Source: a bacterium
GTDB taxonomy: Bacteria; JAMOTN01
Length of the DNA stretch: 45,161 nt
Direction of reading: 5' to 3'
NCBI GenBank assembly: GCA_027062325.1
Contig: JAMOTN010000026.1
Coordinates: 1 to 45,161 of the forward strand
Shown: positions 3,531 through 34,047 of the stretch, piece by piece
Layout of the letters: each line of letters begins with the position of its first letter
Position numbering within the stretch: the first letter of the stretch is position 1
The notes under the pieces: model-generated
Seen by the model: only the letters and a program-made list of their open reading frames with translations
The model's database searches: none
Told to the model about the DNA's origin: nothing
Position numbers and translations under genes: made by a program

Positions 3531-3543
3531 GAGGTGAATGGGT

Positions 3544-3783: not shown

Positions 3784-3795
3784 GGAGTGGTGTTT

Positions 3796-5062: not shown

Positions 5063-5088
5063 GGAAGCCCCCAATTTATTATTGTGAG

Positions 5089-5265: not shown

Positions 5266-5308
5266 GTTAACCCCCTCCTTTTAACAATGGAGTGTTAGGT
5301 TGCCTTTT

Positions 5309-5337
5309 AATTTATCACGATAGAGATAAAAAGTCAA
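5309..5337 (-). promoter_or_regulatory. Sigma-70-type promoter for the 58-codon/flavodoxin-like operon
   Basis: Read on the minus strand, TTGACT (5337-5332) is followed after 17 bases by TAAATT (5314-5309). The -35 matches five of six consensus bases and the -10 four of six, at optimal spacing. A start near 5302 gives a leader of about 37 bases that contains the strong ribosome binding site. It lies back to back with the ppdK promoter; the two TTGACT boxes form an inverted repeat 16 bases apart. Confidence 0.55.
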
Positions 5338-5353
5338 GTTAGGGAGTGATTAT

Positions 5354-5386
5354 TTGACTGATTCCTAATGAGAGCTTTAATATAAT
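5354..5386 (+). promoter_or_regulatory. Sigma-70-type promoter for ppdK
   Basis: TTGACT (5354-5359) is followed 16 bases later by TTTAAT (5376-5381), within an AT-rich run that also holds a perfect TATAAT (5381-5386), though at a 21-base spacing. The resulting leader of about 50 bases ends in the ppdK ribosome binding site AAGGAGG (5426-5432). Confidence 0.55.
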
Positions 5387-5440
5387 AATGAAGTAGCCAT
5401 GTGGTGCAATATTGTAACCACGTATAAGGAGGCGAGGAAA

Positions 5441-8149
5441 ATGGCAAAGAAGAGGATCTACTTTTTTGGAGGTAAGGACAGAAAAGCAGATGGAAATGCT
5501 CAGATGAAGGATTTGTTAGGTGGTAAGGGAGCAAACCTTGCTGAGATGACAAACATTGGACTTCCTGTTCCTCCAGGATTTACCATCACGACAGAGGTAT
5601 GTAAAGAGTACTATGAATTTGGTGGAAAGTGGCCTGATGGTTTGGCTGATGAAGTAAAAGAAGCGGTTAAGAAGATTGAGGAATTGAGTGGAAAGAAGTT
5701 TGGAGATCCAAACAATCCGCTTCTTGTTTCTGTCAGAAGTGGGGCGAAGATCTCTATGCCTGGAATGATGGATACTATATTGAACCTGGGTATAAATGAT
5801 GAGATTGTTGAAGGACTTGCCAAGCTTACCAATAATGATCGCTTTGCATGGGATACCTATAGACGTTTTATCCAGATGTTTGGGGATGTTGTTATGAAGG
5901 TTCCTCATGAAAAGTTTGAGGAGATTATTCAAAAGCAGAAAGATAAGAAAGGTGTTAAGCAAGATGTTGAGCTTACAGCTGAGGATTGGAAAGAGGTTGT
6001 TGCTGAGTATAAAAAACTTATCAAGGAGGTTACAGGGCGAGAGTTTCCACAGGACCCTTGGGAACAGCTTGAGATGGCAATAAATGCAGTGTTTGAATCT
6101 TGGAATAACGAGCGTGCTAAGATTTACAGAAAACTTCATGGAATCCCTGATGATCTTGGAACAGCAGTCAACGTTGTTACCATGGTTTACGGAAACATGG
6201 GAGATGACTGTGGAACTGGAGTTGGATTTACTCGTAATCCTTCCACTGGAGAGAAAGAGTATTATGGTGAATATCTTCAGAATGCACAGGGTGAGGATGT
6301 TGTTGCTGGAATCAGAACCCCAAAGCCTGTTACAGAGTTGGCAAAAGATATTCCGCAGGCTTGGGAAGAGTTGAAAAAGGTTTACGAGATACTTGAGAAG
6401 CACTATCGTGATATGCAAGACTTTGAGTTCACAATTGAAAAGGGGCAGTTGTGGATGCTTCAAACTCGTACTGGAAAAAGAACTGCACAAGCAGCGGTAA
6501 AAATTGCTTACGATATGGTTCAAGAGGGCTTGATCACTAAGGAAGAGGCGGTAGAGAGAATCAGTCCAGAGCAGCTTAAGCAACTTCTTCATCCTCGTAT
6601 TGATCCAAATGAGAAGTACGAAGCAATTGCAAAGGGGCTTCCAGCAAGTCCAGGAGCGGCAGTTGGACGTGTTGTTTTCTCTGCAGATGATGCTGTTGAA
6701 TGGGTAGATCGTGGTGAAAAGGTTATATTGGTGCGTCCAGAGACTACCCCAGAGGATATTGCCGGAATGAATGCAGCTGAAGGTATCTTGACAAGCCGTG
6801 GTGGAATGACTAGCCACGCAGCAGTTGTTGCTCGCGGAATGGGTAAATGTTGTGTTGCAGGTTGCGAAGTTTTGAAGATAAATGAGGAAGAGAAGTATTT
6901 TACAGTTGAAGGAAAGGATGTAAAAGTGAAAGAGGGAGATTGGATCACTCTCAATGGATCTACAGGTGAAGTAATTCTTGGTGCATTGAAGACAATTCCG
7001 GGTGGACTTTCAAAAGAAGCTCAGGCAATTCTTTCTTGGGCAGACGAGATAAGGAAACTTGGAGTTCGTACCAATGCAGATACTCCAGAGGATGCTAGGA
7101 GAGCACGTGAGTTTGGGGCAGAGGGAATCGGACTTTGCCGTACAGAGCACATGTTCTTTGCAGAGGACAGGATTCCATGGGTTAGAAAGATGATTATGGC
7201 AAAGACTAAAGAAGAGAGAATGGAGGCTCTTGAAAAGCTTGAAATTATGCAGACAGAGGACTTCAAAGGTATATTCAAGGCTATGGAGGGATTGCCGGTT
7301 ACGGTACGTCTCCTTGATCCACCTCTTCATGAGTTCTTACCGCCAAGAGATGAGTTGCTTCGTGAGCTTACAGAGATGGAAGTTAAGGGACAGACAAATA
7401 CCCCTGAATATGAGGAGAAGAAAAAGATTTACGAGCGTGTAAACGAACTTTATGAGTTTAATCCGATGATGGGACACCGTGGGTGCCGCCTTGGTATTAC
7501 TCATCCAGAGATTTACGACATGCAGGTTCGTGCTATAATAAATGCTGCAATTGACCTTACCAAGCAGGGTGTGAAGGTATATCCGGAGATAATGATTCCT
7601 CTTGTGGGGCATGTGAATGAGTTAAAGTTCTTAGAAGAGCGTGTGAGAAAAATTGCAGATGAGCTTATAAGCAAGGCAGGAGTAGAGCTTCACTACCTTG
7701 TGGGTACTATGATTGAGATTCCACGTGCTGCAGTTACTGCTGATGAGATTGCGGAAGTTGCAGAGTTCTTCAGCTTTGGTACCAACGACTTGACTCAGAT
7801 GACGTTTGGGTTCTCCCGTGACGATGCTCAGGGTAAATTCTTGAACTATTATGTTGAAACAGGAATTCTTCCAGAGGATCCATTCCAGACTTTGGATCAA
7901 ACGGGTGTTGGAAAACTTGTTGAATTGGCTGCAAACTTGGGAAGAAAGACTCGCAGTAGTTTGAAACTTGGAATATGCGGTGAGCACGGTGGAGATCCTA
8001 AATCCATACACTTCTGCCACAAGATAGGTTTGAACTACGTATCATGTTCTCCATTCCGTGTACCTATAGCACGCCTTGCAGCAGCACAGGCTGTTTTGGC
8101 AGAGAAAAAAGAAGAGAGCAAAGAAAAGGTTCAGGAAGCAGGTAAGTAG
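5441..8149 (+). CDS. ppdK: Pyruvate, phosphate dikinase
   Basis: Interconverts pyruvate, ATP and phosphate with phosphoenolpyruvate, AMP and diphosphate; in anaerobes it works in glycolysis or gluconeogenesis. 902 residues, close to the 870-900 usual for bacterial enzymes. The N-terminal nucleotide-binding domain starts with the GGKGANLAEM loop and includes the VRSGAKISMPGMMDTILNLG segment. The swivelling phosphohistidine domain carries H459 in GGMTSHAAVVARGMGK. The C-terminal barrel has GTMIEIPRAA, FFSFGTNDLTQM and the proton-donor cysteine C846 in GICGEHGGDP. The frame extends to ATG 5399, but AAGGAGG is placed for ATG 5441. It is monocistronic, with its own promoter and a strong terminator. 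Confidence 0.98.
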   Translation: MAKKRIYFFGGKDRKADGNAQMKDLLGGKGANLAEMTNIGLPVPPGFTITTEVCKEYYEFGGKWPDGLADEVKEAVKKIEELSGKKFGDPNNPLLVSVRSGAKISMPGMMDTILNLGINDEIVEGLAKLTNNDRFAWDTYRRFIQMFGDVVMKVPHEKFEEIIQKQKDKKGVKQDVELTAEDWKEVVAEYKKLIKEVTGREFPQDPWEQLEMAINAVFESWNNERAKIYRKLHGIPDDLGTAVNVVTMVYGNMGDDCGTGVGFTRNPSTGEKEYYGEYLQNAQGEDVVAGIRTPKPVTELAKDIPQAWEELKKVYEILEKHYRDMQDFEFTIEKGQLWMLQTRTGKRTAQAAVKIAYDMVQEGLITKEEAVERISPEQLKQLLHPRIDPNEKYEAIAKGLPASPGAAVGRVVFSADDAVEWVDRGEKVILVRPETTPEDIAGMNAAEGILTSRGGMTSHAAVVARGMGKCCVAGCEVLKINEEEKYFTVEGKDVKVKEGDWITLNGSTGEVILGALKTIPGGLSKEAQAILSWADEIRKLGVRTNADTPEDARRAREFGAEGIGLCRTEHMFFAEDRIPWVRKMIMAKTKEERMEALEKLEIMQTEDFKGIFKAMEGLPVTVRLLDPPLHEFLPPRDELLRELTEMEVKGQTNTPEYEEKKKIYERVNELYEFNPMMGHRGCRLGITHPEIYDMQVRAIINAAIDLTKQGVKVYPEIMIPLVGHVNELKFLEERVRKIADELISKAGVELHYLVGTMIEIPRAAVTADEIAEVAEFFSFGTNDLTQMTFGFSRDDAQGKFLNYYVETGILPEDPFQTLDQTGVGKLVELAANLGRKTRSSLKLGICGEHGGDPKSIHFCHKIGLNYVSCSPFRVPIARLAAAQAVLAEKKEESKEKVQEAGK

Positions 8150-17880: not shown

Positions 17881-20034
17881 GTGAAAAAAAGTTTAAGAAG
17901 AATAAAGAGTTATCGCGGTTTTGCTGCGATAGTTTTAGCTATAATTGTTGTATTGCTTGTCTCGGTTTGGTTTATGACTTATAACCAATTGGTTAGAGAT
18001 AAATATTACCTGTACAAGAGAGAAGCAGAGCGTTTCAGAGCTTTCATGTTTGTAAAAGCTGTAAATGTTGCGTTTTGGGATGGAGTTAGGTCTGTTATTG
18101 CTCAGGGAAATGATGATTTTCGCGAATTTTTGAAGGTGTTTAAAGGAGATTACAGCTGGCTTGAGAACAAGTATAGGGCAACGTTGATTACATTGGCAGA
18201 AGCTATGGGGGAAGGAGATAAGGTAAGTTTGAAGGATTTTTCGGTTGATACTAAGAGTTCTCAAATTGGAGCTGATAAAAAGATAGGTATTTCTTCAAAG
18301 GAGATGTATGGAGAGATAATACTTCATGTGAAAGTTAAGTTTGGAAGTACCAAGGTCACGGTGAGTGAGAAAAAATATTTTAGGTTTATCAATATATTAC
18401 CACCTGTTGGGAAGTTTACGTTGTTTGTTAAAAATGCGTTGGGGAGTACAGGAGGAGAATTTTTTGATTTTAACAATGTCAAGTTGAAAAAATGTGATTC
18501 TTCAAACTGTGGAGTTATTGATTCAGGAAGCATTTTGACATGTTTTAATGCTTCTTCGCCAGATGTATACTTTGATGAGGAGCCATGGCATGAGACTGGA
18601 TGGATATATCTTGGGGAGAGAAATGGACGATTCACCAATGTTATTTTGAATATGGGAGATGATTTAGAATATGGAGAAATTGGATTTTGGTACCTTCTAG
18701 ATATTTTGAAGGCTAGAAAGCATGGTAAATATGCTGTAGAGAAGTTGATAAAGACATTTAGGAGTAAAAGTGAGTTTAACAGTTTTGAAGAGAGGAGTAT
18801 AACGCTACCTAAAAATGAGTTACCACCTGCCTGGAGGAACGTTGCTGGATTTGATGTAAGTGTGTACATGAATTTTGTTGGTTTTTCTAAAGAAAGTAGA
18901 AGAATAGAAGAGTCTAGCTTGTTTAAAAAGATGCTTGGAAGGAGTGCCCCTTCTAGTAAAGATGATTATGAGGTTTCCTCTTCAATACTGTTATTTGGGA
19001 ATCCTTTAAATCCAACACCTACTAGATTGTTCGGTAGTTATAAGATGAGATTTTTCAGATTTTCGTTTGTGAGTGCTACTCCACGTGGAGGTGGTATGAG
19101 TGGCGCTGCAGGCATTTCTTATGACGAAAGCAAGAAGTTAATAGATGTTGGTTTAAAGGCTTTGAAAAATTTTAATTTTGATTCCTTCAAAAGTGCATTG
19201 AGTAGAGATTGGTTTGAAAAGTTGAGGAGTGCTTGTTTGAAGGTTGACTACAATAATCTCTGGTATCAAATAGTTCCTGTTTTAAGAGGAACAGTTAAAA
19301 ATAAATACGTTGTAGGTTGGGGAGATAAAATTAAAAAGAGTGTTAAGTTGCCACCATCGGGGCCTAGTGCTATGCGTTATCAAGTAAAACATGGAAGTGA
19401 GGTTGTATTGGATGTTGATGTTAGAAATTTTGATTTTATAAGGGCCTATAAAAAGAAGGTAGTTTGGAAGATAAAGGATTTAAATGGAAATGGAAGAGTT
19501 GATGATGAGTTTGCGCTATTTTGTCTTAAAGAAGATGAAAAAGGTCATCTAGTTTTGAAACTTTGGGGAGGAATAGTTGAATTTGAGCCAACTGGAAGAC
19601 GCCCGCTTGTTTTACCTAAAGGATGGCGGCCGTTTGTTGGTAAGAACGATACAGATGTTATGACTTATGGGGGAGTACTGGTGGCTCCTCGAGTTGTGGT
19701 TTACGATACGTTGCAGGATTCAAATCTTATAAAAGCGCCCTTCGCTATCCAAGCTGATAAGATTCTTTTCAAAGATGTGACGTTTTTGCCGGCTTATGTT
19801 TTAGCTGACAAGCTTTATTTTAATCCTAAAAAATTTGTCTCAGTTTATGGAGGGGTGGCTTGTACTCGTATGATTGAGGCTGGGGAGAGAGATAATCCTT
19901 CTAAACTCATGAAAATTCCAAATATGTCTATCTATTGGAATAGGATTTACAACATAGAAAATGAGCAAATATACAATAGTGGTATGAGGTTGTTTTTTAG
20001 CAAAACTACTTACACTTGGATAGGGGATAAATAA
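17881..20034 (+). CDS. Large PilX/GspK-like pilin-type protein
   Basis: A 717-residue protein starting MKKSLRRIKSYRGFAAIVL. The basic leader ending in Gly, then Phe and a 20-residue hydrophobic helix, is a class III prepilin-peptidase site. The fifth mature residue is Val, not Glu, as in PilX and GspK, which cap pseudopili or pili. Most of the long extracytoplasmic part is unrecognised. It includes DLNGNGRVDDE at residues 533-543, which resembles a calcium-binding loop, and a few scattered cysteines. The start is GTG 17881, nine bases after AGGAG. Two classical prepilin genes follow on the same strand, so the three probably form one minor-pilin or pseudopilin complex. No secretion ATPase or pilin peptidase is nearby. 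Confidence 0.65.
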   Translation: MKKSLRRIKSYRGFAAIVLAIIVVLLVSVWFMTYNQLVRDKYYLYKREAERFRAFMFVKAVNVAFWDGVRSVIAQGNDDFREFLKVFKGDYSWLENKYRATLITLAEAMGEGDKVSLKDFSVDTKSSQIGADKKIGISSKEMYGEIILHVKVKFGSTKVTVSEKKYFRFINILPPVGKFTLFVKNALGSTGGEFFDFNNVKLKKCDSSNCGVIDSGSILTCFNASSPDVYFDEEPWHETGWIYLGERNGRFTNVILNMGDDLEYGEIGFWYLLDILKARKHGKYAVEKLIKTFRSKSEFNSFEERSITLPKNELPPAWRNVAGFDVSVYMNFVGFSKESRRIEESSLFKKMLGRSAPSSKDDYEVSSSILLFGNPLNPTPTRLFGSYKMRFFRFSFVSATPRGGGMSGAAGISYDESKKLIDVGLKALKNFNFDSFKSALSRDWFEKLRSACLKVDYNNLWYQIVPVLRGTVKNKYVVGWGDKIKKSVKLPPSGPSAMRYQVKHGSEVVLDVDVRNFDFIRAYKKKVVWKIKDLNGNGRVDDEFALFCLKEDEKGHLVLKLWGGIVEFEPTGRRPLVLPKGWRPFVGKNDTDVMTYGGVLVAPRVVVYDTLQDSNLIKAPFAIQADKILFKDVTFLPAYVLADKLYFNPKKFVSVYGGVACTRMIEAGERDNPSKLMKIPNMSIYWNRIYNIENEQIYNSGMRLFFSKTTYTWIGDK

Positions 20035-20063
20035 AAGCTAAAGGCTAATAAGAGGTGTTGGAA

Positions 20064-20537
20064 ATGTTGGATGCTGAAAAACGAGCGTTTACTATACCTG
20101 AGGTTGTAATTGCTATACTTGCTATAGCTTTAGTGGTGTTGCCTGCCCAGTATCTGTTTTCTACTACTACAAAGCTTACAGTAAAACCAAAGTATCAGTC
20201 TATTGCGCTTTTGATGTTGGCTGATATTCAGGAGTTATTGATGATAAGTACAACTGTTGCTTACAAAGGTAAGATGTTGAGTGATGATTATTTTTCTAGT
20301 GGAGTTGAGCTGAGTTTGGAAGAGTTTAAAAAGGCTTTTGATGTAAAGTTTCCGGATTTTTCAATGTATCCTGCTCCACCAGGAGGGTATAAGATAAAAT
20401 TCACCCTTCTCAAAGCTGAGTCCTTCGGAGTTGTTGTACCGTGTATAGTTGTTGAAATATCTTGGCAGGAGGGTAAAAAATGCAAAGAAGTAAAGACAGT
20501 TGTTCCAGCCGTGGTTTCACCTTGGCAGAAGTTATAA
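20064..20537 (+). CDS. Type IV prepilin-like protein (PilV/GspI-like)
   Basis: 157 residues. The short leader MLDAEKRA ends at the cleavage site A|FTIPE, with Ala rather than Gly before the cut. It is followed by the conserved Glu5 and a hydrophobic helix (VVIAILAIALVVLPAQYLF) that packs in the pilus core. The C-terminal domain is short, with one cysteine-containing strand pair (VVPCIVVEISWQEGKKC). Best fit is a minor pilin of the PilV or GspI kind. The frame runs back to GTG 20055, but AGAGGTG (20051-20057) is placed for ATG 20064. Its last 58 bases overlap the next pilin gene. Confidence 0.75.
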   Translation: MLDAEKRAFTIPEVVIAILAIALVVLPAQYLFSTTTKLTVKPKYQSIALLMLADIQELLMISTTVAYKGKMLSDDYFSSGVELSLEEFKKAFDVKFPDFSMYPAPPGGYKIKFTLLKAESFGVVVPCIVVEISWQEGKKCKEVKTVVPAVVSPWQKL

Positions 20538-21061
20538 TTGCTCTTGCGATTTTGAGTGTGGTTTTTGCTATAGCTTCAAAGTTTATGTTTGGTAAGAGGG
20601 GGGTTTATAAGGGAATAGAAGAGGGAGAGGCTAGAATGAAAGTTTATGCTGATGTTGGTAGAATTTTGTTCATACTAAAGCGTGATTTTATGAGTGTTTC
20701 TGGTGAACCTAAATTTGATGATAAGGAGCAGATTTTAGAGTTACCGATAGGGTTATCTGAGAAGGTTGTGTATCAATTTGGAGATAAAGTGAAGAGAGAA
20801 GTTGTTGGAGGGAAAGTTAGTTACTTTCCAGTTAAGTTGAGTATTTCTGATTTTAAAGTTAAAAAAGAGGGATTGGCTTTTCAGATAGTGAAGCCCGGTG
20901 GTAGGCGAGCTCCTTATAAAGGGGCTTTTATGTACAGGATATATGCCACTTTTTCTGTTGATGTTAAGGGAAAAAATGTTAAGGTGCCGTTTGTATCTAC
21001 TCCTTATACATTGAATACGATGGTTACGGATTGTTTCAATACTGGGGGAAATGGCAGTTAG
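20480..21061 (+). CDS. Type IV prepilin-like protein (PilW/GspJ-like)
   Basis: 193 residues with a canonical class III leader: MQRSKDSCSSRG|FTLAEVIIALAIL, including Gly before the cut and Glu5. The body is mostly beta strands with a short loop region rich in Pro and Gly (IVKPGGRRAPYKGAF) and ends with a cysteine (VTDCFNTGG). Size and position after the PilV/GspI-like gene suggest a PilW/GspJ-type minor pilin. AGGAGGG is five bases before ATG 20480, inside the preceding gene, so both frames are real despite the 58-base overlap. It converges on flgI with a 38-base gap. Confidence 0.8.
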   Translation: MQRSKDSCSSRGFTLAEVIIALAILSVVFAIASKFMFGKRGVYKGIEEGEARMKVYADVGRILFILKRDFMSVSGEPKFDDKEQILELPIGLSEKVVYQFGDKVKREVVGGKVSYFPVKLSISDFKVKKEGLAFQIVKPGGRRAPYKGAFMYRIYATFSVDVKGKNVKVPFVSTPYTLNTMVTDCFNTGGNGS

Positions 21062-22162: not shown

Positions 22163-22726
22163 TTACAACAAGAATTGCAATATTTTACTTACAAGACCTT
22201 TTTTCTGAGTTGAAGATATAGAACCTGATCCCTTTATTATCACCTGTGAGTTAGCAAGATACTTTGAATCTACTATGTTGTCGCTGGATATGTCTTGTGG
22301 ACGAACTTCTCCACGTATTATTAAAAGCTGCTTTTCGCCGTTTATAACTATCTCTTTCTTACCTTCAACCAATAGATTTCCGTTTGGGAGTTTGGAGACG
22401 ATAACTGCAGATAGGTATGCACTTACACTGTTGGAGTCATTCATTTTACCGTCGCCCTTCCACTTTGTTGTGCCTTTGTGAGAACCAAGAGGAATAAATT
22501 TTAGAAAGCCTTTTCCAGTTTCGATGGAATGATCCTCTTCTTCTTTGGCTTCAATTTTTGAAGTTTTCGAAATACTTGATTGTTCGTTTATACGAATCAG
22601 CACTATATCTCCCACGCGCCTTGCTGTTGAATTTGAAAACAAATTTTGATTTTCATCGTTCCAAAGAGAGGCTGCGTATAAATTTAGGTTTATAAGAGTC
22701 AGAATGATAACAATAAGCTTATCCAT
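22163..22726 (-). CDS. flgH: Flagellar L-ring protein FlgH, without a lipobox cysteine
   Basis: Builds the L-ring in the outer membrane. 187 residues. The FlgH core is clear: RRVGDIVLIRINEQSSISKTSKI, then LSAVIVSKLPNGNLLVEGKKEIVINGEKQ, and RGEVRPQDISSDNIVDSKYLANSQV. FlgH is normally a lipoprotein, but here the signal peptide is followed by LYAASLWNDE and the protein contains no cysteine at all, so it cannot be lipidated in the usual way. Its first eight bases overlap the end of flgA, and the ribosome binding site lies within flgA. Confidence 0.95.
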   Translation of the reverse strand: MDKLIVIILTLINLNLYAASLWNDENQNLFSNSTARRVGDIVLIRINEQSSISKTSKIEAKEEEDHSIETGKGFLKFIPLGSHKGTTKWKGDGKMNDSNSVSAYLSAVIVSKLPNGNLLVEGKKEIVINGEKQLLIIRGEVRPQDISSDNIVDSKYLANSQVIIKGSGSISSTQKKGLVSKILQFLL

Positions 22727-23615
22727 TTTGAATCACCGCCTTTCCGTCGACAATTTTTGCAGAGTACACTCGATTTTGAAATCTAACACGGATGTTGGGA
22801 CCATTTTGAGAAACAACTGTAGCAGGTACTTCTACTTCCACATTTCCACTTTTGAATGTGACTTTGATGATGCTTCCCTTATCAAAGTGATATGGGAATT
22901 CCAAATAAGATTTGTATATCTTCGCTCCTTTTGGAATGGAAGTTGCAGCTACCATACTATTTAGCTCATTTTCAGAAGCAAGGAGTCGAGCAGTTGCATA
23001 AGGAATTGATGCGGTAGTTATTTTATAGCTAATTTTTTCACCTTTTCTTATGTTCCTTGTTGCTGTAGGGACTTTAAATGATGCTCTGACCAATATTCCA
23101 AATGGAATGTTTACGCTGTGTCCATAATCGTTGCCTATTAAATTTGCAGATATGAAGCCAGTTTTATTCTGTGAGATAAGCTTTACGTCAAAGTTGAGAT
23201 TTTTAGGTACGATTTTGTTCCAGTTTACGTTTAGATTTACCTCAAATGTTGCTAGATTGCGGATGTTTGAAAAACGAGCTGCAAGAGCTTGATGAACTTT
23301 TCTAAAAACTTTGTCTTTGAGTTTTGCAAGTTTGATACCGCTCCTAGTTACGAGTATATTTGGAAAATTTATTCCAAAATTAGATTTGAAGTAATAGGAG
23401 GAGAAGTAGCGTTGAGAACCAACATTGAGTTCACAGAGTATGCTATCTGGAATTGAGAGTTTCTTACCGAGTTTCGAAGCGATGTCGTAAAGAGATATTA
23501 ATCGTTTTTCAAAGGTTAGGGTTTTATAGTTTAAATCAGTAGATGCGTGTGTAACTATTGATAAAATAACCAGAATTATAGTCATGCATATAGATAATAG
23601 AGTTCTGAACTCCAT
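22719..23615 (-). CDS. flgA: Flagellar P-ring assembly chaperone FlgA
   Basis: A periplasmic chaperone needed for FlgI to polymerise into the P-ring. 298 residues, with a signal peptide (LLSICMTIILVILSIVTHA). The C-terminal two-thirds hold the SAF/FlgA domain: ATRNIRKGEKISYKI, AATSIPKGAKIYKSYLE, then IIKVTFKSGNVEVEVPATVV and the closing VRFQNRVYSAKIVDGKAVI. The N-terminal part is divergent. It is first in the flgAHI operon, with a G-rich ribosome binding site (GGAGGGGGAG) and a sigma-28-like promoter directly upstream. Confidence 0.95.
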   Translation of the reverse strand: MEFRTLLSICMTIILVILSIVTHASTDLNYKTLTFEKRLISLYDIASKLGKKLSIPDSILCELNVGSQRYFSSYYFKSNFGINFPNILVTRSGIKLAKLKDKVFRKVHQALAARFSNIRNLATFEVNLNVNWNKIVPKNLNFDVKLISQNKTGFISANLIGNDYGHSVNIPFGILVRASFKVPTATRNIRKGEKISYKITTASIPYATARLLASENELNSMVAATSIPKGAKIYKSYLEFPYHFDKGSIIKVTFKSGNVEVEVPATVVSQNGPNIRVRFQNRVYSAKIVDGKAVIQNG

Positions 23616-23666: not shown

Positions 23667-23736
23667 AATGTTAAAATTTGGGGTAGAGTGTATAGTTTTG
23701 TGTGTAATTTTAAACATAGGGAGAGGGGATAAATTT

Positions 23737-26700
23737 ATGGGTGATATGCGAAAGGCACTTGTGCTTTACAAGGAAGCTAAAGAGCTAAAAGAAAAAGGAG
23801 AGTATGAAAAGGCTAAAAGTCTGGTTGAACAGGTTAATGTTTTTTACGAACCTTTGATTTGTTTAAAAAAGGATATATATCATTCTTTGACTATGTATAG
23901 TGAATACATAGCAACTTTAGAGGAACTCATAGATGCTTCGAAGGATCGCGAGGTTTATTTAACTGAGTGGGCTGAATTTTTTGTGACTGTGCTTCGAGAA
24001 GATTTTGAAGTTGTTCCCCTATTTGTGAAAGAGTTAAAAAAAGAGTTGGATACCTCTTCTAAACTCGGGCCTATGCTCAGATTATTCGGAGTTTACGCCT
24101 TTATCCTGCCTCGACTGGATCCTGATAGAGCTGTTGAATCTTTGTCTCACGCTAGAATGCTTGCTAAGAAAATACAGGGGGAGTTTCCATCTGATTGGAT
24201 TGGTTGGTGGGCTGAGAAGGTTGTTATGGAGAAGTTGTTTGATCTTGGATTCGCGACGGCTGATGAAATAGTTGCAGTTTTGGAAGAGGCAAAAGGATCT
24301 TTTAAAAAGGTTAAGATGGAGCTTATAAACATATACTGGAAGACTTCTAGCATAGATAAATTGAAAGATATGGCTGCTGGATTGAAGGATGAAATGCGCA
24401 TTTTAGCTGAGGGTTTGATTGCCATACATGAGAAACGTTGGGGGGAGGCTGTGGAAAGATTTTCCTCAATTGAAGTTCCGGCTTTTGCTAAGTATGATTA
24501 CTTTGTGGCACTTTATAGGAGTGGTTTTTGGCAAGAAGCAAAAAGAGTTAGTGGTGAGGTTAAGTGGAGTAGGGATAGTATACACGAGTATGTGGAGTTT
24601 GCTTCTGAGTATGGAGAGGAGGCTAAGAAAGAGTTACTGGCTAGATATTCTGGATGGATAAATAGTAATCCTTACTATATGTACAGGTTGGGTGAAGAAC
24701 TTCCATATTTAAATTCTCTTGTATATAAAAAGGAGTTCAAAGTTGCATCTTTTTTGGCTCAACAAGCTGGTTTTTCAAGTGAATGGGTGAGGTTACCTCA
24801 GGTTTTGGAAAGTGCGATAAGAAGTAAGGATGTAAGTTTGTTGTTTAATGAGTTTTCTGATATTGAAAGAGATTGGCAGTGCTTAGTTTTAGCTTTAAAA
24901 GTTTTGAAAGCGGAGTTTGCGGATCTGATCCTTTCGCGTATTCAAGATTGGGATAAGGTTAATTGGAGACTTAAAGAAGAGATAGCGGCGACTAAATTAG
25001 AACATGGTGATATTGTTTTGCTAGATGAATTGTTAAAAGATAAACCAGCTAGTAAGTGGGGATTGCTTGCAAAAGCAATAGCTACTGGTAACTTGACTTA
25101 CTTTGAGGAGGCAGAGGAATATGCTAATCCTCAAGATACTGAGTTTTACAAAGTAGCCCTTAAGTGGCTAAAGAGCATTGATCTAGAAAGGGCTGTTGAT
25201 ATAGCTGAGAGAATTTACTTGGCTTCTAAGGTTGATATAGAATTTGTGAGGTTGTTTGCACAACTTTTAAAAGAGGCAAAGCTTTGGGAAAAAATAGAGA
25301 TCTACTTTGCGGATAATCACGATGTATACATACGTATGTTTTATGCAGTTGCTTTGATGAACATGAACAAAATGGATGAGCTTAAAAAGATACTGGAAGA
25401 GTTGCCGACAACTCAGCCAATATATTGGTACATAAAAGCAGAAATTGAAAAAGTAGAGGAGCTAAAATTAGAAAACTACTGGAAGGCTTACAACCTTGGT
25501 CTTAGAGATGAAGAGTTTATTTTGAAATTTACCTACGTGCTTTACAATAACGGCTTTTATCAGGAAGCAGTGAAGATTTTAGAAGAGTCATTGGATGTTG
25601 AGAACAATGTGAAGGCGTTGAAAATATATGCACTGTGCATTTATGCCATCGGTGATAAAGACAAATTTAAATACTATGCCTCTAAGGTTGCGGAAAAAAT
25701 AAAGGAGAAAGAAGTTTTAAAATTGCTACTCAAGGTATATTTAGAAGACGAGGCTTATCAGGTTGCGCTCGATTATGCTAATAAGCTTTCCACTATTCCT
25801 GAGCTTGATGTTGAGGCTTATCTTTTGATAGCCAAAGCTTATTGGTTATCTGAGAAGCTAGAAGAGGCGGAAAAATGGATAGATGTTGCTCTTGAAAAGG
25901 GATGTGAAAGTGATGAGTGTCTAGAGGTGGCAGCAGATATTAAGTATAGGTTGAGTAAATATGAAGAGGCAAGCATTATTTATGAGGAGTTGAGTAATCG
26001 TCATCCGGAGGTAACTGCCTATTTAAAGAGGTATGCAGAGTGTATGTTGGCTCTTGGAAAAGAGGAAGAGGCACTCAGATATTTAGAGGCTGCTTTCGAT
26101 ATAGATCCCGCAGATATTGATGTTGTAAGTGTGCTTACAGAGCTTTTGGAAGGAAAAGGAAATTGGCAACGACTTGTTGAGATAATGACTGAGGTTGTTG
26201 GAATATACCCTGAGGATATTGACTTTCGCAATAAATTGGCGGAGGCTTTGGAAAATACTGGCCAGCTTGATAAGGCTATTTCTCAATGGAGATGGTTGTG
26301 GGAAAAGACTTCTCAACTTAAGTATCTTGTACGCTTAGGAAAAGCTTACCTTAAAGGAGCCAAATTTGATGAGGCTCTTGAGTGCTTCAATCAGGTTTTA
26401 GAAAGGGAGCCTAATAACTTGGAAGTATTGGCAGAGATGGGGAAAATGGAGCTTCACCGGGGGAATATTACCAAAGCAAAGGAGTATTTTAAAAAGGTGC
26501 TTGATTTAGATCCAACTAACACCGTCGCAATGTATGAGCTTGCGAAGATTTACAAGACCATAGGAATGATTGATGAAGCGGTGGAGATTCTTGAACGTTT
26601 GAGAGGTAAAGTTTCTGGAAGTGATAAGGTGGATGTTTTAAAAGAGCTTGCAAATCTTTATAGATTAAATGGGAAGTATGATGAGGCAGTTGCAGTATTG

Positions 26701-29700
26701 CGTGAGTTAGCTGAAGAGCATCCAGAGGAAGAGATTCTATTTTTGCTTGGAAAAACCTATCTTGAAATGGAGGAGTATGATAAAGCACTTGAGTATTTGC
26801 AAAAAGTTACTTCTCTCAATATGAGGGCAAATTACTTGTTTGAATTGGGAAGAGCTTACTATCATCTTAAAAAATACGATGAGGCGGCAGAGGTTTTGCT
26901 ACAGGTTCTAGCTGTGGATCCAGATTACTACGATGTGTATGCCTTGCTTGGAAAGGTGTATGAAGCGAAAGGAAACATGGAGGAAGCAGAGAGAATATAT
27001 GAGAAGGCTTTAAAAGTTGATGAGGATTATCAGCTCTTAGTTGCTTGCGCGCGGGTTAAGAGACGTCTTGGAAAGTTGGAAGAGGCTAAAAATTATTACT
27101 TGAAGGCTTTTTGGCAGAATCCTGCTAATCAAGAGGTAATGTTTGATCTATTGAAAGTTTTGGATGAAATGAAAGATTGGGATACGGCTTTGAAAGTTGT
27201 TGAACAGGCTATAGAAACGTTGCCTCGCAGTCCGTTGCTCCGCTATCTTGCGGGTGTTTATTCGCTGCGCTTAGGGGATACGAAGGGGGCTTATCAGTAC
27301 TTGAAAGAGGCGGTTAATTTAAATCCAGAGTATGTGGATGCGCTTTACGAGTTAGGACGCATAGCTTTAGAAGAGGGAAGACTCGTTGTGGCAAAGGAGT
27401 ATGTTGAAAGAATTCTTAAGATATTTCCAAGTAGTGGAAAAGCTCATTGGTTAAAAGCTCAGATTTTAGAAAAAGAGGGTAACAAGATTGCTCTGATAGA
27501 AGAATTAAAACAGGTTGTGAGATTGGAGCCTTCTATAATAGAAGCAAAGAAAAAGCTTGGATTTCTATATGAGGAGAGTGGTTTGCTGTCTGAAGCTGCT
27601 AGGTTATTGGAGGAGTACTGGCAACTTAGTCAAGACAGAGATGTTGCTTTGAAGTTGGCAGAGATTCATCAAAAACTTGGTAATTATGAGAGGGCGGAGT
27701 ATTATTTAGAGGTTGCCAAGAATTTTGATGAGGAGAGCGAAGAGTACAATTACAAGATGGCAAAAATGTACTTTGAGCGTCAGGATTACTCAGTAGCGTA
27801 TGAGTATGCTACAAAAGTTTGGCAGATAGCAGGAGATGAAGGCATAGTTAATAAGGGATTCTTTGGTGAGATTTTGAGAATATTAATGGTTAGTGCGTAT
27901 GCACTTGCAAAGTTTGATGAAGTTTATCAGCTTGGTAAGAGGTTTTTTGATCAAATAGTGGATAATAGGGATTTGTTGTTAAGGTACATGGAATCAGCTT
28001 ACAAGGTTGGAGATAATTCTGAGTTTTCGAGGGCTGCTATCCACTACTTTGAAAAATTTGAGGATGAAGAAAGAGCTTTGGATGTTGCAATGCGATTAAT
28101 AGAGCTGAATATGTTTGAACAGGCTTCTCAGGTGCTCAAAGAGTACAATTCGTCGCAAGCGAGAGTTTTGAGAATATATGCTCTTTGGAAAATGGGAGAG
28201 AGACAAGAGGCAAAGCATGAGATGATGTCTCTTCAAAAGGTTGTTTACTTGGATAAAATAGCTGAAATCATTGTTGAAAGTGAAGATCCGGAGCTTTACA
28301 AACGTTTTGCTAAGGTGTTTGAAGTGGCAAAAAATGCTGAAGTTTTGGAGTTAATTGCTCCGTTTGCTGAAAGAATGGGAGATGTTAAGAGGGCTTATAT
28401 TATGTATAAAAAGTTGGCTGAACATAAGCCATTTTACCTTGTAAAAGCCATAGAGACTGCAGAGCGCCTGGGTTTGGATGATGATGTAGTTCTATTGAAG
28501 AAAAAATTGATGGACGTGTCAACTGATGATCCATCTGTAAAGCTAGAGTTGGCGTCTCTCTATATAAACTCTGGAAAGGAAGATGAGGCAGCCTCCATTT
28601 TAAACACTGTTGAGTTTGATGGCTTGTCTGTGGAAGAAAAGCTGCGTTTGGCAAAAATGTTAGTTAAGTTAAAACTCTATGAAAAAGCTTTGGAAGTTGT
28701 TGATAGTATTTCGGATGATGAATACGAAGTGGTTAAAGAAAAATTGTCTTTGTTAAAGAGTGTGGATATTGAATTAGCAGTTGAATATGCACAAAAGATG
28801 CTGGAAAAATATCCAGATTTGGCTGAAGAGCTGGTAATTCTCTACATTGAGTTGGGAGATGTGAGGAGTGCTTTAGAATATGCTGAGTTTGTTAAGAATG
28901 AGGAAATAAATACTTTACTTGAAGCTATAAGAGGAGTGGAAGAGGATCCTGTTTCGGCTGCGGAGGTTTTGAAAAAGTACTACAGGGGAAATAATCTGTT
29001 GAGTTATTACTATGCTCTTTCACTGTACAAGCAGGGGAAGTATGACGAGGCAATTGAAGTTTTGGAAAAGTTGCCGGAGAAGGATAAGCGCGTTTCTTTA
29101 CTCCTTGCGCGTGTATATGCTGCTAAAGAAGATAAGGTTCAATCCTACAAGTGGCTTGATTATCACAGAGATGAGACAGATCCTGAGTGGCTGATAGTGG
29201 CGGGGGAGGTTCACAGCAAGTTTGGAGATTTGACCGAGGCTGCTAATTACTTCTCCCAAGTGGAAGAATTTGTGGAAGGAAAGGTTGAGTTGTATGAGTC
29301 TATAGCAATTGCGTTGTGGAACGTTGGGCAGTTTGACAAGGCGTTTGGTTACCTTAAGGTGGCAATGCGAGAGGAAAAGCTGACTCATACCGGTATGAGA
29401 TATCTTTTAATAGCGGCTTTGGCAGAAGTTGATAATTACCTATTTGAAAGTGTTGCGGAGAAGCTAATAGAGGGGAATTGGGAAGATAAACTTTTAGTTG
29501 CAAAGTTGAGTGCAGTCAAAGGTGAATATGAGTCGGCAATGGAACTTTTGGAAGAAGTTTTGAGACTTCAAAATAGAAATGTGAATGTGGCTATAGATGC
29601 TGCTTTTGTATATATGGGAGTTGGCATGCTTGATAGGGCTCAAGAGATAGTGGATTCGTGGCTTGGGGTTGAAGAGAACGAAAAGCTTATGGTATTAAAA

Positions 29701-32103
29701 GCTTTAATAGCAGCAAAGAGAGGAGATATTGCTCAGGCTAAGGCTTATGCTGATAAGATGATTGAGAAGTTCAAAAATATAACCGCTTATATGATGCTTC
29801 CAGAGATTTATTACGAGATGGGGATGTACGATCAGGCGGTAGCTGAGCTGAAAAAGTTAGAGCAAGAGTCTTCTGATGATAGAATAAAGCTTGCACTTGC
29901 TAAAACATACGTAAGACTTGCAGAGAAAATGGGAGAAGAGATGTTTATTGAGGAGGCTGAGAAAAAACTTGCTGAAGTTGTCAATAAAGATCATATGCTT
30001 TACAGCTTTATAAAAGCTGAGATTGCATTCTACAAAAATGACATAGAAGAAGCTGTGCGTTCCTACAAAATAGCGGTTTACAAACAGCCATTTAGCTTTG
30101 AATGTTATACCAAGTACATGGAAGTGCGTAATATATGGTTTGAGAAGAAAGTTGAGGAAAGGCTTAATTCTGCTCGAGTATTTTTAGATAAGGGTCTTGT
30201 TGAGAGCGCAAAACTTGAGTTGGAAGAGGTTTTGAAGATTGATCCTAATAACTTTACAGCAAATCTTGAGTTAGCCAAGATCTTGATAAAGGAGAATGCT
30301 CTTGAGGAAGCACTTGAACACTTAGAAAGGTGTGTTAGTTCAAATCCTGCAGCTGTTGAGGTTCGTCTTGAGTATGCGAAATTGCTGTTTAAACAAGGGA
30401 AGTTTGACAAGTCGCTTGAAGAAGTGGAAGAAGTGCTTGGACTTGATCCTACGAATGCTCAAGCGCGTCTTTTACAAGCTAAGTGCTATGAAGAGCTTGG
30501 GAGACTTGATGAAGCAGTTGAGGCTTATGAAAGTGCTGTAAGGCTTGATGGTACCCTTGTTGAGGCAGCTTTGAAAGTGGCGCGTTATTACTCGGAAAAA
30601 GGAGAAATTGAGGAAGCAAGAAAGTATTACAACATTGTATTGGCTAATGAACCGAATAACAGGGAGGCTCTAGATTGGTTGGCAAAGGTTCAGCGTTCTG
30701 AAATAGAAGAGAAGCTTACAGAGCACTTTGAAGCTGCTAGAAAATTTGAGGAAGAGGGAGAGTTGAGTAAAGCACTTTTAGAATACGAAGCAGTTGTTGA
30801 TATAGATCCGACAAATATTGAAGCACGTGAGAAGATGGCTACCATATTTGAGCAGCAGGAAGAGTACAATCAGGCAGCTTTCGAGTACGAAAGAGCTTTT
30901 GAAAATAGCGAAGGTGAGAAGAAGGTTTACTTTGCAAAGAAGATTGTTACTTCCTCTAGTAGAGCATTTGATCATGCAAGGGCAAGCCAATATTTGAAGT
31001 GGTTGTATCAAAATACGGATCTAGATTTTGCTTTCAGAGCGGCTTGGATATCAGAAATTGTAAAAGCAGCTTTTGCTGCTCCAAAAGTTGCTGCTCCAAA
31101 TTACGATGATTTGATTTCATTGTTAAAAGAAAAGGTTTCTTCTGATTCGAGCTACAATTATGATTTAGGGTATCTAATGGCCTATCTACCTACCTATACT
31201 GTTTCTGAAGATGAGATTAGAAGCAAAGGAATACATCATCTTAGGATGGTTGAAGATAAAAGAGAAGCAAAGCTTGCCCTTGCTGATGCTCTGCGTCGTG
31301 AAGAAAACTTTGATGAAGCTTTACAGATATTGGAAGAGATGTCTGAAGAAGAGGAAATATTGGTTTTAAAAGCGCATGTACTTGAAACTATGGGAGAATT
31401 CGTAAAGGCTCAGGAAGTTTATGAAAAGTTATACACTGAATATGTAGATCCAGCTTATCTTGAGAAGAAAACTAAGCTTTTAAAATACACAGTTGATCAA
31501 AATGAAAGAGAAAAGCTATTCAGACAGCAGAAGGCAAAGCTGGGAATGAAAGTTAAGAAAAATATGGAAGATCCGCTTATTCTTTTAGAATACTGTTTAA
31601 CCCTTCTTGCTCTAGCTCCTCTTATCCTTGATGAGGAGGATGTGTCCACGATAGAAGGTTATTTAAAGCAAGCAATATCTTTGGAGCCTGAGCTTAAAGA
31701 GGCATACTTTGCTTTGCGAGATTTGTATCAGCGTGAGGCTTTGAGTGGACGCAGAAAATACGAAGATGCCATGAGTATTATGTTAAAAATTGCTGAAAAG
31801 TTCAAAAATGATGCTAGAGTTAAACTTGAGCTTGGAAATACTTACAACGAGAATATAGAAAGAAATGCCAAAAACGAAGCTATAGATGCTTACAGAGAAG
31901 CTTTAAAGATAGAGCCTAACTACATAGATGCTCGTTTTAAGTTGGCAGGAGTTTACAGAATAAAGGGAATGGTTGAGGAGGCTAAGGAAGAGTATGAAAA
32001 GGTCTTAGAGATTGATCCGGCTTCTCGTTTAGCAAAAGAGGCACGCAATGCAATTGTGCACATTGAGAAGTCGCTGTCTGGTATGGATGACATAGAGTTG
32101 TAG
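23737..32103 (+). CDS. Giant tetratricopeptide-repeat protein (2788 residues)
   Basis: The largest gene in the window. The whole protein appears to be a helical TPR array: A/G/Y-rich helix pairs with the usual spacing of about 34 residues. The best repeats are at about 870-1000 (YFKKVLDLDPTNTVAMYELA), 1045-1095, 2146-2318 (LEEVLKIDPNNFTANLELA) and near the C-terminus. The part from about 1400 to 2080 is more degenerate. It has no signal peptide, membrane helix or enzymatic motif that I can see and is acidic, so it is probably a cytoplasmic scaffold. The frame extends to ATG 23668, but GGAGAGGGG is placed for ATG 23737. Function unknown; it is divergent from flgAHI and precedes rimO. Confidence 0.88.
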   Translation: MGDMRKALVLYKEAKELKEKGEYEKAKSLVEQVNVFYEPLICLKKDIYHSLTMYSEYIATLEELIDASKDREVYLTEWAEFFVTVLREDFEVVPLFVKELKKELDTSSKLGPMLRLFGVYAFILPRLDPDRAVESLSHARMLAKKIQGEFPSDWIGWWAEKVVMEKLFDLGFATADEIVAVLEEAKGSFKKVKMELINIYWKTSSIDKLKDMAAGLKDEMRILAEGLIAIHEKRWGEAVERFSSIEVPAFAKYDYFVALYRSGFWQEAKRVSGEVKWSRDSIHEYVEFASEYGEEAKKELLARYSGWINSNPYYMYRLGEELPYLNSLVYKKEFKVASFLAQQAGFSSEWVRLPQVLESAIRSKDVSLLFNEFSDIERDWQCLVLALKVLKAEFADLILSRIQDWDKVNWRLKEEIAATKLEHGDIVLLDELLKDKPASKWGLLAKAIATGNLTYFEEAEEYANPQDTEFYKVALKWLKSIDLERAVDIAERIYLASKVDIEFVRLFAQLLKEAKLWEKIEIYFADNHDVYIRMFYAVALMNMNKMDELKKILEELPTTQPIYWYIKAEIEKVEELKLENYWKAYNLGLRDEEFILKFTYVLYNNGFYQEAVKILEESLDVENNVKALKIYALCIYAIGDKDKFKYYASKVAEKIKEKEVLKLLLKVYLEDEAYQVALDYANKLSTIPELDVEAYLLIAKAYWLSEKLEEAEKWIDVALEKGCESDECLEVAADIKYRLSKYEEASIIYEELSNRHPEVTAYLKRYAECMLALGKEEEALRYLEAAFDIDPADIDVVSVLTELLEGKGNWQRLVEIMTEVVGIYPEDIDFRNKLAEALENTGQLDKAISQWRWLWEKTSQLKYLVRLGKAYLKGAKFDEALECFNQVLEREPNNLEVLAEMGKMELHRGNITKAKEYFKKVLDLDPTNTVAMYELAKIYKTIGMIDEAVEILERLRGKVSGSDKVDVLKELANLYRLNGKYDEAVAVLRELAEEHPEEEILFLLGKTYLEMEEYDKALEYLQKVTSLNMRANYLFELGRAYYHLKKYDEAAEVLLQVLAVDPDYYDVYALLGKVYEAKGNMEEAERIYEKALKVDEDYQLLVACARVKRRLGKLEEAKNYYLKAFWQNPANQEVMFDLLKVLDEMKDWDTALKVVEQAIETLPRSPLLRYLAGVYSLRLGDTKGAYQYLKEAVNLNPEYVDALYELGRIALEEGRLVVAKEYVERILKIFPSSGKAHWLKAQILEKEGNKIALIEELKQVVRLEPSIIEAKKKLGFLYEESGLLSEAARLLEEYWQLSQDRDVALKLAEIHQKLGNYERAEYYLEVAKNFDEESEEYNYKMAKMYFERQDYSVAYEYATKVWQIAGDEGIVNKGFFGEILRILMVSAYALAKFDEVYQLGKRFFDQIVDNRDLLLRYMESAYKVGDNSEFSRAAIHYFEKFEDEERALDVAMRLIELNMFEQASQVLKEYNSSQARVLRIYALWKMGERQEAKHEMMSLQKVVYLDKIAEIIVESEDPELYKRFAKVFEVAKNAEVLELIAPFAERMGDVKRAYIMYKKLAEHKPFYLVKAIETAERLGLDDDVVLLKKKLMDVSTDDPSVKLELASLYINSGKEDEAASILNTVEFDGLSVEEKLRLAKMLVKLKLYEKALEVVDSISDDEYEVVKEKLSLLKSVDIELAVEYAQKMLEKYPDLAEELVILYIELGDVRSALEYAEFVKNEEINTLLEAIRGVEEDPVSAAEVLKKYYRGNNLLSYYYALSLYKQGKYDEAIEVLEKLPEKDKRVSLLLARVYAAKEDKVQSYKWLDYHRDETDPEWLIVAGEVHSKFGDLTEAANYFSQVEEFVEGKVELYESIAIALWNVGQFDKAFGYLKVAMREEKLTHTGMRYLLIAALAEVDNYLFESVAEKLIEGNWEDKLLVAKLSAVKGEYESAMELLEEVLRLQNRNVNVAIDAAFVYMGVGMLDRAQEIVDSWLGVEENEKLMVLKALIAAKRGDIAQAKAYADKMIEKFKNITAYMMLPEIYYEMGMYDQAVAELKKLEQESSDDRIKLALAKTYVRLAEKMGEEMFIEEAEKKLAEVVNKDHMLYSFIKAEIAFYKNDIEEAVRSYKIAVYKQPFSFECYTKYMEVRNIWFEKKVEERLNSARVFLDKGLVESAKLELEEVLKIDPNNFTANLELAKILIKENALEEALEHLERCVSSNPAAVEVRLEYAKLLFKQGKFDKSLEEVEEVLGLDPTNAQARLLQAKCYEELGRLDEAVEAYESAVRLDGTLVEAALKVARYYSEKGEIEEARKYYNIVLANEPNNREALDWLAKVQRSEIEEKLTEHFEAARKFEEEGELSKALLEYEAVVDIDPTNIEAREKMATIFEQQEEYNQAAFEYERAFENSEGEKKVYFAKKIVTSSSRAFDHARASQYLKWLYQNTDLDFAFRAAWISEIVKAAFAAPKVAAPNYDDLISLLKEKVSSDSSYNYDLGYLMAYLPTYTVSEDEIRSKGIHHLRMVEDKREAKLALADALRREENFDEALQILEEMSEEEEILVLKAHVLETMGEFVKAQEVYEKLYTEYVDPAYLEKKTKLLKYTVDQNEREKLFRQQKAKLGMKVKKNMEDPLILLEYCLTLLALAPLILDEEDVSTIEGYLKQAISLEPELKEAYFALRDLYQREALSGRRKYEDAMSIMLKIAEKFKNDARVKLELGNTYNENIERNAKNEAIDAYREALKIEPNYIDARFKLAGVYRIKGMVEEAKEEYEKVLEIDPASRLAKEARNAIVHIEKSLSGMDDIEL

Positions 32104-32131: not shown

Positions 32132-33472
32132 ATGGCAGCTGTGAAACTGTTTCCAGTACCCCTAGGATGTCCTAGAGTAAGGAGGGAGTTTGAAGAGATA
32201 CTTGCGGGGATTGAAGCAGCAGGAGTTGAGATAACCTTTTCTCCGGAGGAAGCAGATGTTGCTTTAATGAGTAGCTGTACATTTATAACACCTGCTTTTT
32301 TAGAAAGTAAGGAGTATATGGAATGGCTTCTTAATTTTGAGAATTTAAAAAAAGTGTTTGTAGTGGGGTGTGTTGTGAGAAGAGCTTATGAAGAACTTAA
32401 AGACTATTACTATGATGAATGGATAAGTGGTAGGTTGAGATTCATAGATGTTGCTCCTGTTGATGAAGTTGTGAAGAGTGTTTTAAATGAACAGGAACTA
32501 TTGCTGGATAAGCCGTCTTCTACGATGACTATCCATAGATTTTCTCTTGATCCTCTTACCGCTCACGTAAGAATTGCGGAGGGATGTTCTAATCGTTGCA
32601 GTTACTGTATAATTCCGCATTTGAGAGGGAATGTGGTTTTTAGAAAAGCAGATGAAATTCTAAAAGATGTTGAATTACGGTTAAATGAGGGAGTAAGGGA
32701 GATAAACTTGGTGGCTCAAGATACTACAGCTTGGAGAGGGGAAAAAGGTGGTCAGGATATTGTTTGGTTGTTAAACAAACTTGAAGATGAGTTTTCAAAT
32801 TTTGTAGAGGATAAGGTGTGGTTTAGAGTTCTTTACATGTATCCAGCTAAAGTAAACGATGAATTGATAGATTTTTTGTTGAAGTCTAAATTATTTGTTC
32901 CATACTTTGACATTCCCTTTCAGCACACGAACAGTCGGATTTTGAAGGAGATGAAAAGACGCTATTCGCGTGATGATGTATTTGAATTAGTTAGTAGAAT
33001 AAGAAGAACTGCTTCAGCACATGGAAAACGGGCATTTTTAAGGAGTGCTTTTATAGTCGGGTGGCCAACTGAAACTGAGGAAGATTTTAAAAAATTTCTA
33101 GAAGATTTAAAGCTTTTAAAATTAGATAGAGCCGGATTTTTCTATTACGATCCGGATCCGTGGGCTGAGAGTTTTAAATTGGGAGACTTAGAAATTGAGG
33201 TAAAACTAGAGAGGCAGCGTAAGGCTTATGCTGTTCAAGAGTGGCTTATGGCTCAAGTTAATGAAAAGTTTGTGGGGGAAGATGGAGAGGTGTTGTTAGT
33301 AGCTTATGATACTGATAATGATTGCTTTTTGGCACGGGGATGGTTTGAACCAGATGATACAGAGGAGTACATAATAGTGGAGGCAGATGATAGTGAGTAT
33401 GAGATAGGTGACTTTGTAGTTGGAAGGTTTGATAAGATTGATGAAAGTGGAAGATTGGTCATGGTTGTGTGA
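32132..33472 (+). CDS. rimO: Ribosomal protein S12 methylthiotransferase RimO
   Basis: A radical-SAM enzyme that adds a methylthio group to an aspartate of ribosomal protein S12. 446 residues. The N-terminal domain has the three cysteines for the auxiliary cluster: C13 (LGCP), C49 (SSCTFI) and C79 (VVGC). The SAM cluster is C152-x3-C156-x2-C159 in EGCSNRCSYCIIPHLRG, followed by VAQDTTAW and FDIPFQHTNSRILKEMKRRYS. A C-terminal TRAM domain covers about 375-446. RimO is preferred over MiaB or MtaB because of the short acidic TRAM, LGCP, and adjacency to pgsA. The usual KNxVDSE after LGCP is replaced by RVRREFEE. AGGTGG lies 12 bases before the ATG. Confidence 0.9.
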   Translation: MAAVKLFPVPLGCPRVRREFEEILAGIEAAGVEITFSPEEADVALMSSCTFITPAFLESKEYMEWLLNFENLKKVFVVGCVVRRAYEELKDYYYDEWISGRLRFIDVAPVDEVVKSVLNEQELLLDKPSSTMTIHRFSLDPLTAHVRIAEGCSNRCSYCIIPHLRGNVVFRKADEILKDVELRLNEGVREINLVAQDTTAWRGEKGGQDIVWLLNKLEDEFSNFVEDKVWFRVLYMYPAKVNDELIDFLLKSKLFVPYFDIPFQHTNSRILKEMKRRYSRDDVFELVSRIRRTASAHGKRAFLRSAFIVGWPTETEEDFKKFLEDLKLLKLDRAGFFYYDPDPWAESFKLGDLEIEVKLERQRKAYAVQEWLMAQVNEKFVGEDGEVLLVAYDTDNDCFLARGWFEPDDTEEYIIVEADDSEYEIGDFVVGRFDKIDESGRLVMVV

Positions 33473-33510
33473 TTGTTTGTTTTTAAATGAAAGGAGGGAA
33501 TTTTCAGTGT

Positions 33511-34047
33511 ATGAAGCTTTTTAGCAAAGTGGCGGATATTCTAACATTTTCACGATTTGTGGGTGGATTTATTGTAGTGATTGTTTTTCCATATGCTCCT
33601 AAAGTAGCGTTTTGGCTATATGTTGCTTTTGCACTTACGGATTGGTTTGATGGATATTTTGCAAGAAAATACGGTGTTACGTTCTGGGGAAAGTTGTTTG
33701 ATCCTGTTGCTGACAAGGTTTTGCTTGTTCCAATATTTATGAAGTTTGAAGTTCCATGGTGGTTTGTGACGATATGGTTTGCCCGGGAACTTGTAGTTAT
33801 GGGATTGCGAGTTGAGATGGTCAAAAGGGGCGTTGACATAGCTGCTAAGTGGTTAGGAAAATGGAAGACTGTGTTTTTATCGCTTTATGCAGGAGGAGTT
33901 GTCTTTTTAGCAGCAAAAGTTGGAAATTCTACCTTTTGGTTTTACTTGATTAAAAGTTTTTTCTGGATTTCACTAATTCTAGTTGTGGCAAGTTTAGTGG
34001 ATTACGTTATAGCTTACAGCTCTGTTACTAGGGAGGAACATAGCTAA
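33511..34047 (+). CDS. pgsA: CDP-diacylglycerol-glycerol-3-phosphate phosphatidyltransferase
   Basis: An integral membrane enzyme making phosphatidylglycerol phosphate, the committed step to phosphatidylglycerol. 178 residues with about five hydrophobic segments. The CDP-alcohol phosphotransferase motif is complete: D44, then D47-G48-x2-A51-R52-x8-G60-x3-D64-x3-D68, in DWFDGYFARKYGVTFWGKL and the following FDPVAD. The frame extends to ATG 33487, but AAAGGAGGG lies just inside that start and 13 bases before ATG 33511, so the latter is preferred. Adjacency to rimO is a common arrangement. Confidence 0.93.
   Translation: MKLFSKVADILTFSRFVGGFIVVIVFPYAPKVAFWLYVAFALTDWFDGYFARKYGVTFWGKLFDPVADKVLLVPIFMKFEVPWWFVTIWFARELVVMGLRVEMVKRGVDIAAKWLGKWKTVFLSLYAGGVVFLAAKVGNSTFWFYLIKSFFWISLILVVASLVDYVIAYSSVTREEHS

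Follow-up and report, generated by a model that had tools for sequence, protein, structure and literature searches.

A giant TPR-solenoid protein encoded ahead of rimO-like and pgsA-like genes, with a conserved family of relatives in a second bacterial phylum

Among the described systems that come closest to the protein considered here, SgmX of Myxococcus is a large cytoplasmic bacterial TPR protein (PMC7519303, PMC7668184). Long TPR scaffolds that form part of large complexes are represented in eukaryotes by the giants IFT139/TTC21, SKI3/TTC37 and Ctr9, and PflA and PflB provide the TPR scaffold of a bacterial machine, the flagellar motor of Campylobacter. Here we describe a gene for a giant TPR-solenoid protein, located at 23737..32103 (+) in the window, by which we mean the whole stretch of 45,161 nucleotides that was analysed (contig JAMOTN010000026.1 of assembly GCA_027062325.1). 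Its assignment is based on the open frame, the ribosome-binding site, codon usage, the TPR families matched, and homology to a family.

The frame is unbroken, bearing out the single 8.4-kb reading frame of the original prediction, and its product counts 2788 residues (323.6 kDa). A strong ribosome-binding site, the Shine-Dalgarno sequence GGGAGAGGGG at 23719..23728 (+), precedes the ATG at 23737. The longest alternative frame would begin at 23668 and encode 2811 residues, with no Shine-Dalgarno sequence ahead of it; judging from the sequence, 23737 is the supported start and 23668 an unlikely one. No signal peptide is found from 23737, in line with what had been predicted, and that statement would fail only for the start at 23668, the use of which would add a short hydrophobic stretch to the N-terminus. 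The relative synonymous codon usage of the gene follows that of 13 neighbouring genes (r = 0.97) and is thus native. Throughout the window, the coding strand has a very strong skew of G over C, up to 0.55 per kilobase, which tracks gene direction.

Such a length could be explained by an assembly artefact, or by a neutral or recent expansion of repeats, considering that the assembly of the window genome (about 84% complete) is fragmented into 81 contigs and that TPR arrays can grow by duplication. However, tandem repeats were looked for at the DNA level and none were found, the gene contains no N's, and GC content by codon position is even along it, with no shift, all of which makes a frameshift-joined artefact, named in the original prediction as a finding that would refute it, or a collapsed repeat, unlikely. 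Moreover, the mean identity between the TPRs of the protein is 19%, and the relatives in a second phylum presented below have a similar length, the same neighbours and the marks of strong purifying selection, so that an expansion or artefact is already contradicted and deserves practically no credence.

The product is an alpha-solenoid in which 40 or more TPRs can be recognised. Of the 36 Pfam families matched, all 25 that are listed belong to the TPR or TPR-like solenoids. A TPR matrix, for which three other proteins of the window genome served as training set, finds 40 repeats, where 0.08 would be expected in shuffled sequences, or 46 repeats (1 expected) when the cut-off is relaxed; the repeats cover 55% of the protein. 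The predicted run of TPRs from end to end is therefore sound as regards the solenoid character, but it is unproven for the N-terminal fifth, given that residues 41-529 contain no TPR according to the matrix and stay without a Pfam hit at a threshold as loose as E = 1. The whole stretch of residues 1-617 (23737..25587, +) is without convincing homologues, and its low-confidence model consists of helices only. AlphaFold was run without an alignment on residues 1-700 and 1300-2160, and it produced helices and no strands in both parts, with a mean pLDDT of 61 for the first (mostly below 50 between residues 36 and 190) and 77 for the second. Neither the Pfam matches nor these two models include a catalytic domain, which agrees with the lack of catalytic motifs noted originally. 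Foldseek returns generic TPR matches only, such as the giants IFT139, Ctr9 and Ski3.

The window genome, which is the single representative of its phylum in the comparison set, encodes many large solenoid proteins. Another large TPR solenoid, of at least 518 residues with its N-terminus cut by the contig end, lies at the end of contig C25 (L041 1321-2877), adjoining a glutamate-dehydrogenase-like gene; considered as a paralogue of the central part of the giant protein (28-31% identity), it was set aside, since it has no family C-terminus. On contig C20 (L055 5027-11081), a P-loop ATPase-like frame is followed by an 825-residue TPR protein and then by another frame, at least 1189 residues long, with no obvious repeats. 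A placement of the host in Thermotogota was considered and set aside: its UvrC has at most 36% identity with that of any of 386 genomes, and its FtsZ is closer to the Bacillus-type protein than to that of T. maritima. Two different ftsZ genes stand in tandem on contig C46 (about 3529-5865; L060 409-2745), the first of which is without a long C-terminal tail.

Naming the protein by standard means would be misleading. With 401 bits against a cut-off of 312 for PrsT of XrtA/PEP-CTERM systems (TIGR02917), and 304 bits against a cut-off of 200 for the magnetosome protein MamA (NF040959), it formally qualifies as either of them. These scores, however, are sums over 8-10 separate stretches. PrsT is matched in eight partial stretches, the best of which covers 230 of 899 model positions, there is no single full-length match, and from 23737 the protein has neither a signal peptide nor a lipoprotein signal. 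MamA is expected to be a protein of about 200 residues, not of 2788, and none of the annotated neighbours in the window is a magnetosome gene. Length and gene order fit neither identity, and the chance that one of them is right is vanishingly small. Because repeat scores add up past the cut-offs while the architecture contradicts the name, NCBIfam would misname the giant protein, and its equivalog cut-offs constitute an annotation trap for long TPR arrays such as this one. SgmX (NF052243) was rejected on its score, as the model requires 1800 bits and reaches 53.

Searches with the whole protein, its N-terminal part or its central part gave generic TPR matches or nothing: residues 1-617 found no match in 290 genomes save one marginal, and a scan of genome contigs with the whole protein gave one match, to a generic TPR. 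The C-terminal 401 residues, on the contrary, gave E-values near 1e-37 (127-131 bits) in two genomes, the next TPR match scoring 49 bits. The family was thus exposed by the C-terminal search only, whole-protein searches being swamped by the TPR background. A profile of three rows then gave strong matches (290-705 bits) in 35 of the 40 genomes of a second phylum, and several of the five without one are incomplete or fragmented. When a 12-row profile was run on 386 genomes from about 260 families, the window genome scored 433 bits and three second-phylum members 567-604 bits; outside the second phylum and the window genome, the maximum was 127 bits, the next best score. Since the 12-row profile included the window sequence, it was rebuilt without it, and the window-free profile still gives the giant protein 200.6 bits at residues 2417-2780, while no other stretch of this protein or of its paralogues exceeds 45 bits. 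This conserved C-terminal family region (30985..32076, +), which is also apparent in alignments, ends in V-H-I-E.

Collinearity was assessed by running profiles of successive family segments against the giant protein. Two blocks are collinear: residues 649-1365 (25681..27831, +), which comprise canonical TPRs and correspond to family columns of about 875-1675, and residues 1983-2788 (29683..32100, +), which correspond to the C-terminal third of the family; for residues 1-648 and 1366-1982, collinearity is not certain. The C-terminal region of about 400 residues, the collinear array, and the presence of rimO and pgsA downstream are the features of family membership found in the window protein. 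These sequence comparisons show that the gene product belongs, as a divergent member, to a conserved group of giant TPR solenoids of about 2800-3150 residues, encoded in one frame or in two consecutive ones. Among the families listed, none in Pfam or NCBIfam is dedicated to this group, and no description of it was found in the literature outside subscription papers. The original prediction of a very large, undescribed cytoplasmic TPR scaffold is supported in this respect, and of the well-studied homologous family that could have overturned it only one half holds: relatives of comparable size are conserved, yet the papers searched give no account of them.

The length of the family is nearly constant, with totals of 2999-3154 residues in 12 members, whether these are encoded in one frame (3112-3124 residues), in two consecutive frames of about 1615 and 1535 or of 1722 and 1312 residues, or as 523 plus 2476 residues. 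Identity is spread along the full length, at 31-50% per 200 columns and higher at the very end, peaking in the last 120 or so residues and in columns of about 1380-1560 of the family alignment. In three close pairs of second-phylum relatives, dN/dS lies at 0.038-0.056, and each 400-residue segment for which it was computable also has a low value, although dS approaches saturation in two of these pairs. As judged from these sequences, strong purifying selection acts on the family over its whole length, a conclusion that concerns the relatives and not the window protein. The conservation of TPR groove positions was tested as a sign of peptide binding, with a negative result, as these positions are not conserved above other exposed ones. 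This speaks against ligands being bound throughout the array and favours a structural protein with a few docking points, for which the conserved C-terminus is the best candidate.

Most members open with M-x4-C-P-F ... C-x4-C ... C, a module of four cysteines (Cys4) that, from its sequence, is likely a metal-binding head. It is a common feature of the family, not required by its definition, and it is absent from the window protein, nor was any found elsewhere in the window genome at its 84% completeness. In two other genomes (G114 and G101), a large TPR protein of 1262-1295 residues adjoins a separate Cys4-TPR protein of 493-534 residues (L139 3362-10948 and L142 5845-11246), which suggests that the large TPR and Cys4 parts work together. 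A ClpA/B-like AAA protein follows the pair in L139.

The original prediction tentatively linked the giant protein to motility, stating that its promoter overlaps that of flgAHI. The gene is indeed divergent from flgA (22719..23615, -), the two start codons being 121 bp apart, and Campylobacter flagellar-motor TPR scaffolds appear among the weak fold matches, so that a motility scaffold working with the flagellar ring genes and sharing their promoter region has to be considered. However, no promoter-like site was found in the 121 bp between the start codons, and none of the open reading frames in 22 family loci of the second phylum matches FlgA, FlgH, FlgI or FliD of the window. The recurrent neighbours are instead ftsK, rimO, pgsA, pgpA, cinA and recA. 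In addition, no signal peptide is present at the supported start, while the Campylobacter scaffold is periplasmic, and the fold matches are generic, with TM-scores of about 0.2. A PflA/PflB-like flagellar scaffold was rejected on the missing signal peptide and flagellar matches. The flagellar neighbour is thus local to the window genome, neither part of the claim is supported, and we consider the motility role very improbable; the search for homologues of similar length, proposed originally as a check, did uncover a conserved family, yet one whose 22 loci hold no match to the flagellar proteins of the window. Elsewhere in the window, at 17881-21061, frames of 717 and 160 residues with almost no family matches lie ahead of a pilin-like gene, and the cluster may serve a type IV pilus or secretion.

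Downstream, the situation is the opposite. A rimO-like radical SAM methylthiotransferase gene (32132..33472, +), identified by TIGR01125 and synteny, begins 28 bp downstream of the giant gene; the best full-length match of its product is TIGR01125 RimO, with 294.5 bits, short of that model's cut-off of 357, while the cut-off of the MiaB/RimO subfamily is exceeded. A pgsA-like CDP-alcohol phosphatidyltransferase gene (33487..34047, +) comes next, and the order giant TPR-rimO-pgsA is common to both phyla. In the second phylum the usual order is ftsK-giant TPR-rimO-pgsA-pgpA-(cinA-recA), the giant being replaced by frames A and B in two-frame members, with cinA and recA present in loci long enough that retain them. 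In G256, where the contig end truncates the protein to at least 1815 residues, rimO is the next gene, and pgpA-like, cinA-like and prmC-like genes come after it. On the simplest reading of these gene orders, the rimO-pgsA neighbour would be ancestral and the flagellar one secondary.

As rimO is the most constant downstream neighbour (about 16 of the 22 loci, sometimes with one or two genes between) and lies so close in the window, the gene pair could be functional, with the superhelix bringing RimO to ribosomal protein S12 or to the nascent ribosome. We regard such a ribosome-associated or RimO-assisting factor as unlikely: no rimO lies near the giant gene in the f263 genomes (G412, G413, G414), in G394 or in G386, and rimO also adjoins pgsA and ftsK, so that its position may be inherited. 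Nor is RimO known to need a protein of this kind in those bacteria in which its action has been examined. Somewhat less doubtful, yet still a minority view, is a division-site or envelope scaffold that would organise FtsK and phosphatidylglycerol synthesis. The gene ftsK is directly upstream in all 12 two-frame loci (frames of about 1300-1542 and 1612-1722 residues), most of which have pgsA or pgpA downstream. However, single-frame members have no ftsK within the flanks examined, that of the window genome is on another contig (C3), and gene order alone is weak evidence.

The explanation we favour, and hold to be probable, is that the giant protein is a constitutive cytosolic scaffold with likely docking through the C-terminal region or Cys4, serving housekeeping rather than motility, since the family is conserved, constrained and near-universal in the second phylum. 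It would form a long superhelix of about 70-80 helix pairs, in which length and the conserved C-terminal region would be what matters; partners would dock most likely at that region and, in most members, at the N-terminal Cys4 module. We infer the scaffold role from the fold class, and the neighbours ftsK, rimO and pgsA point to the envelope, division or the ribosome more than to motility, bearing in mind that gene order by itself weighs little. The groove result, the lack of Cys4 in the window protein, the location of its ftsK elsewhere, and residues 1-617 without convincing homologues count against this constitutive scaffold. More tentatively, and with somewhat better odds against it than for it, the family may be an undescribed core component of two phyla: a cytosolic TPR superhelix of about 320 kDa and near-fixed length, acting as a septal or cell-wide organising scaffold, ancestrally in the order ftsK-[giant]-rimO-pgsA, and with a metal-binding head in most members. 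What seemed a lineage oddity is instead near-universal in a phylum, almost constant in length and constrained, pointing to an apparently unassigned core function, and the C-terminal region, the Cys4 module and the ftsK/rimO/pgsA setting offer handles for finding its partners.

Compared with known systems, the giant protein resembles SgmX in being a large cytoplasmic TPR protein, although SgmX acts on type IV pili. IFT139, SKI3 and Ctr9 are the best fold matches to its central part, but at 13-15% identity and TM-scores of at most 0.3 the likeness is one of repeat fold and not a shown homology. PflA and PflB reach TM-scores of 0.17-0.18 and, contrary to the giant family, whose loci have no flagellar context, belong to a flagellar machine. 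The large TPR proteins of G114 and G101 likewise have no obvious signal sequence, but they fall below the threshold of the C-terminal family profile, have other neighbours, and keep Cys4 in a separate protein, whereas it is fused in the second-phylum giants. With respect to these giants (G256, G118, G383), the window protein is shorter, at 2788 residues, is without Cys4, has unrelated first 600 or so residues, and has a flagellar operon upstream in place of ftsK; even so, both have the C-terminal region and two collinear TPR blocks, are encoded ahead of rimO and pgsA, and fall into a size class of about 3000 residues.
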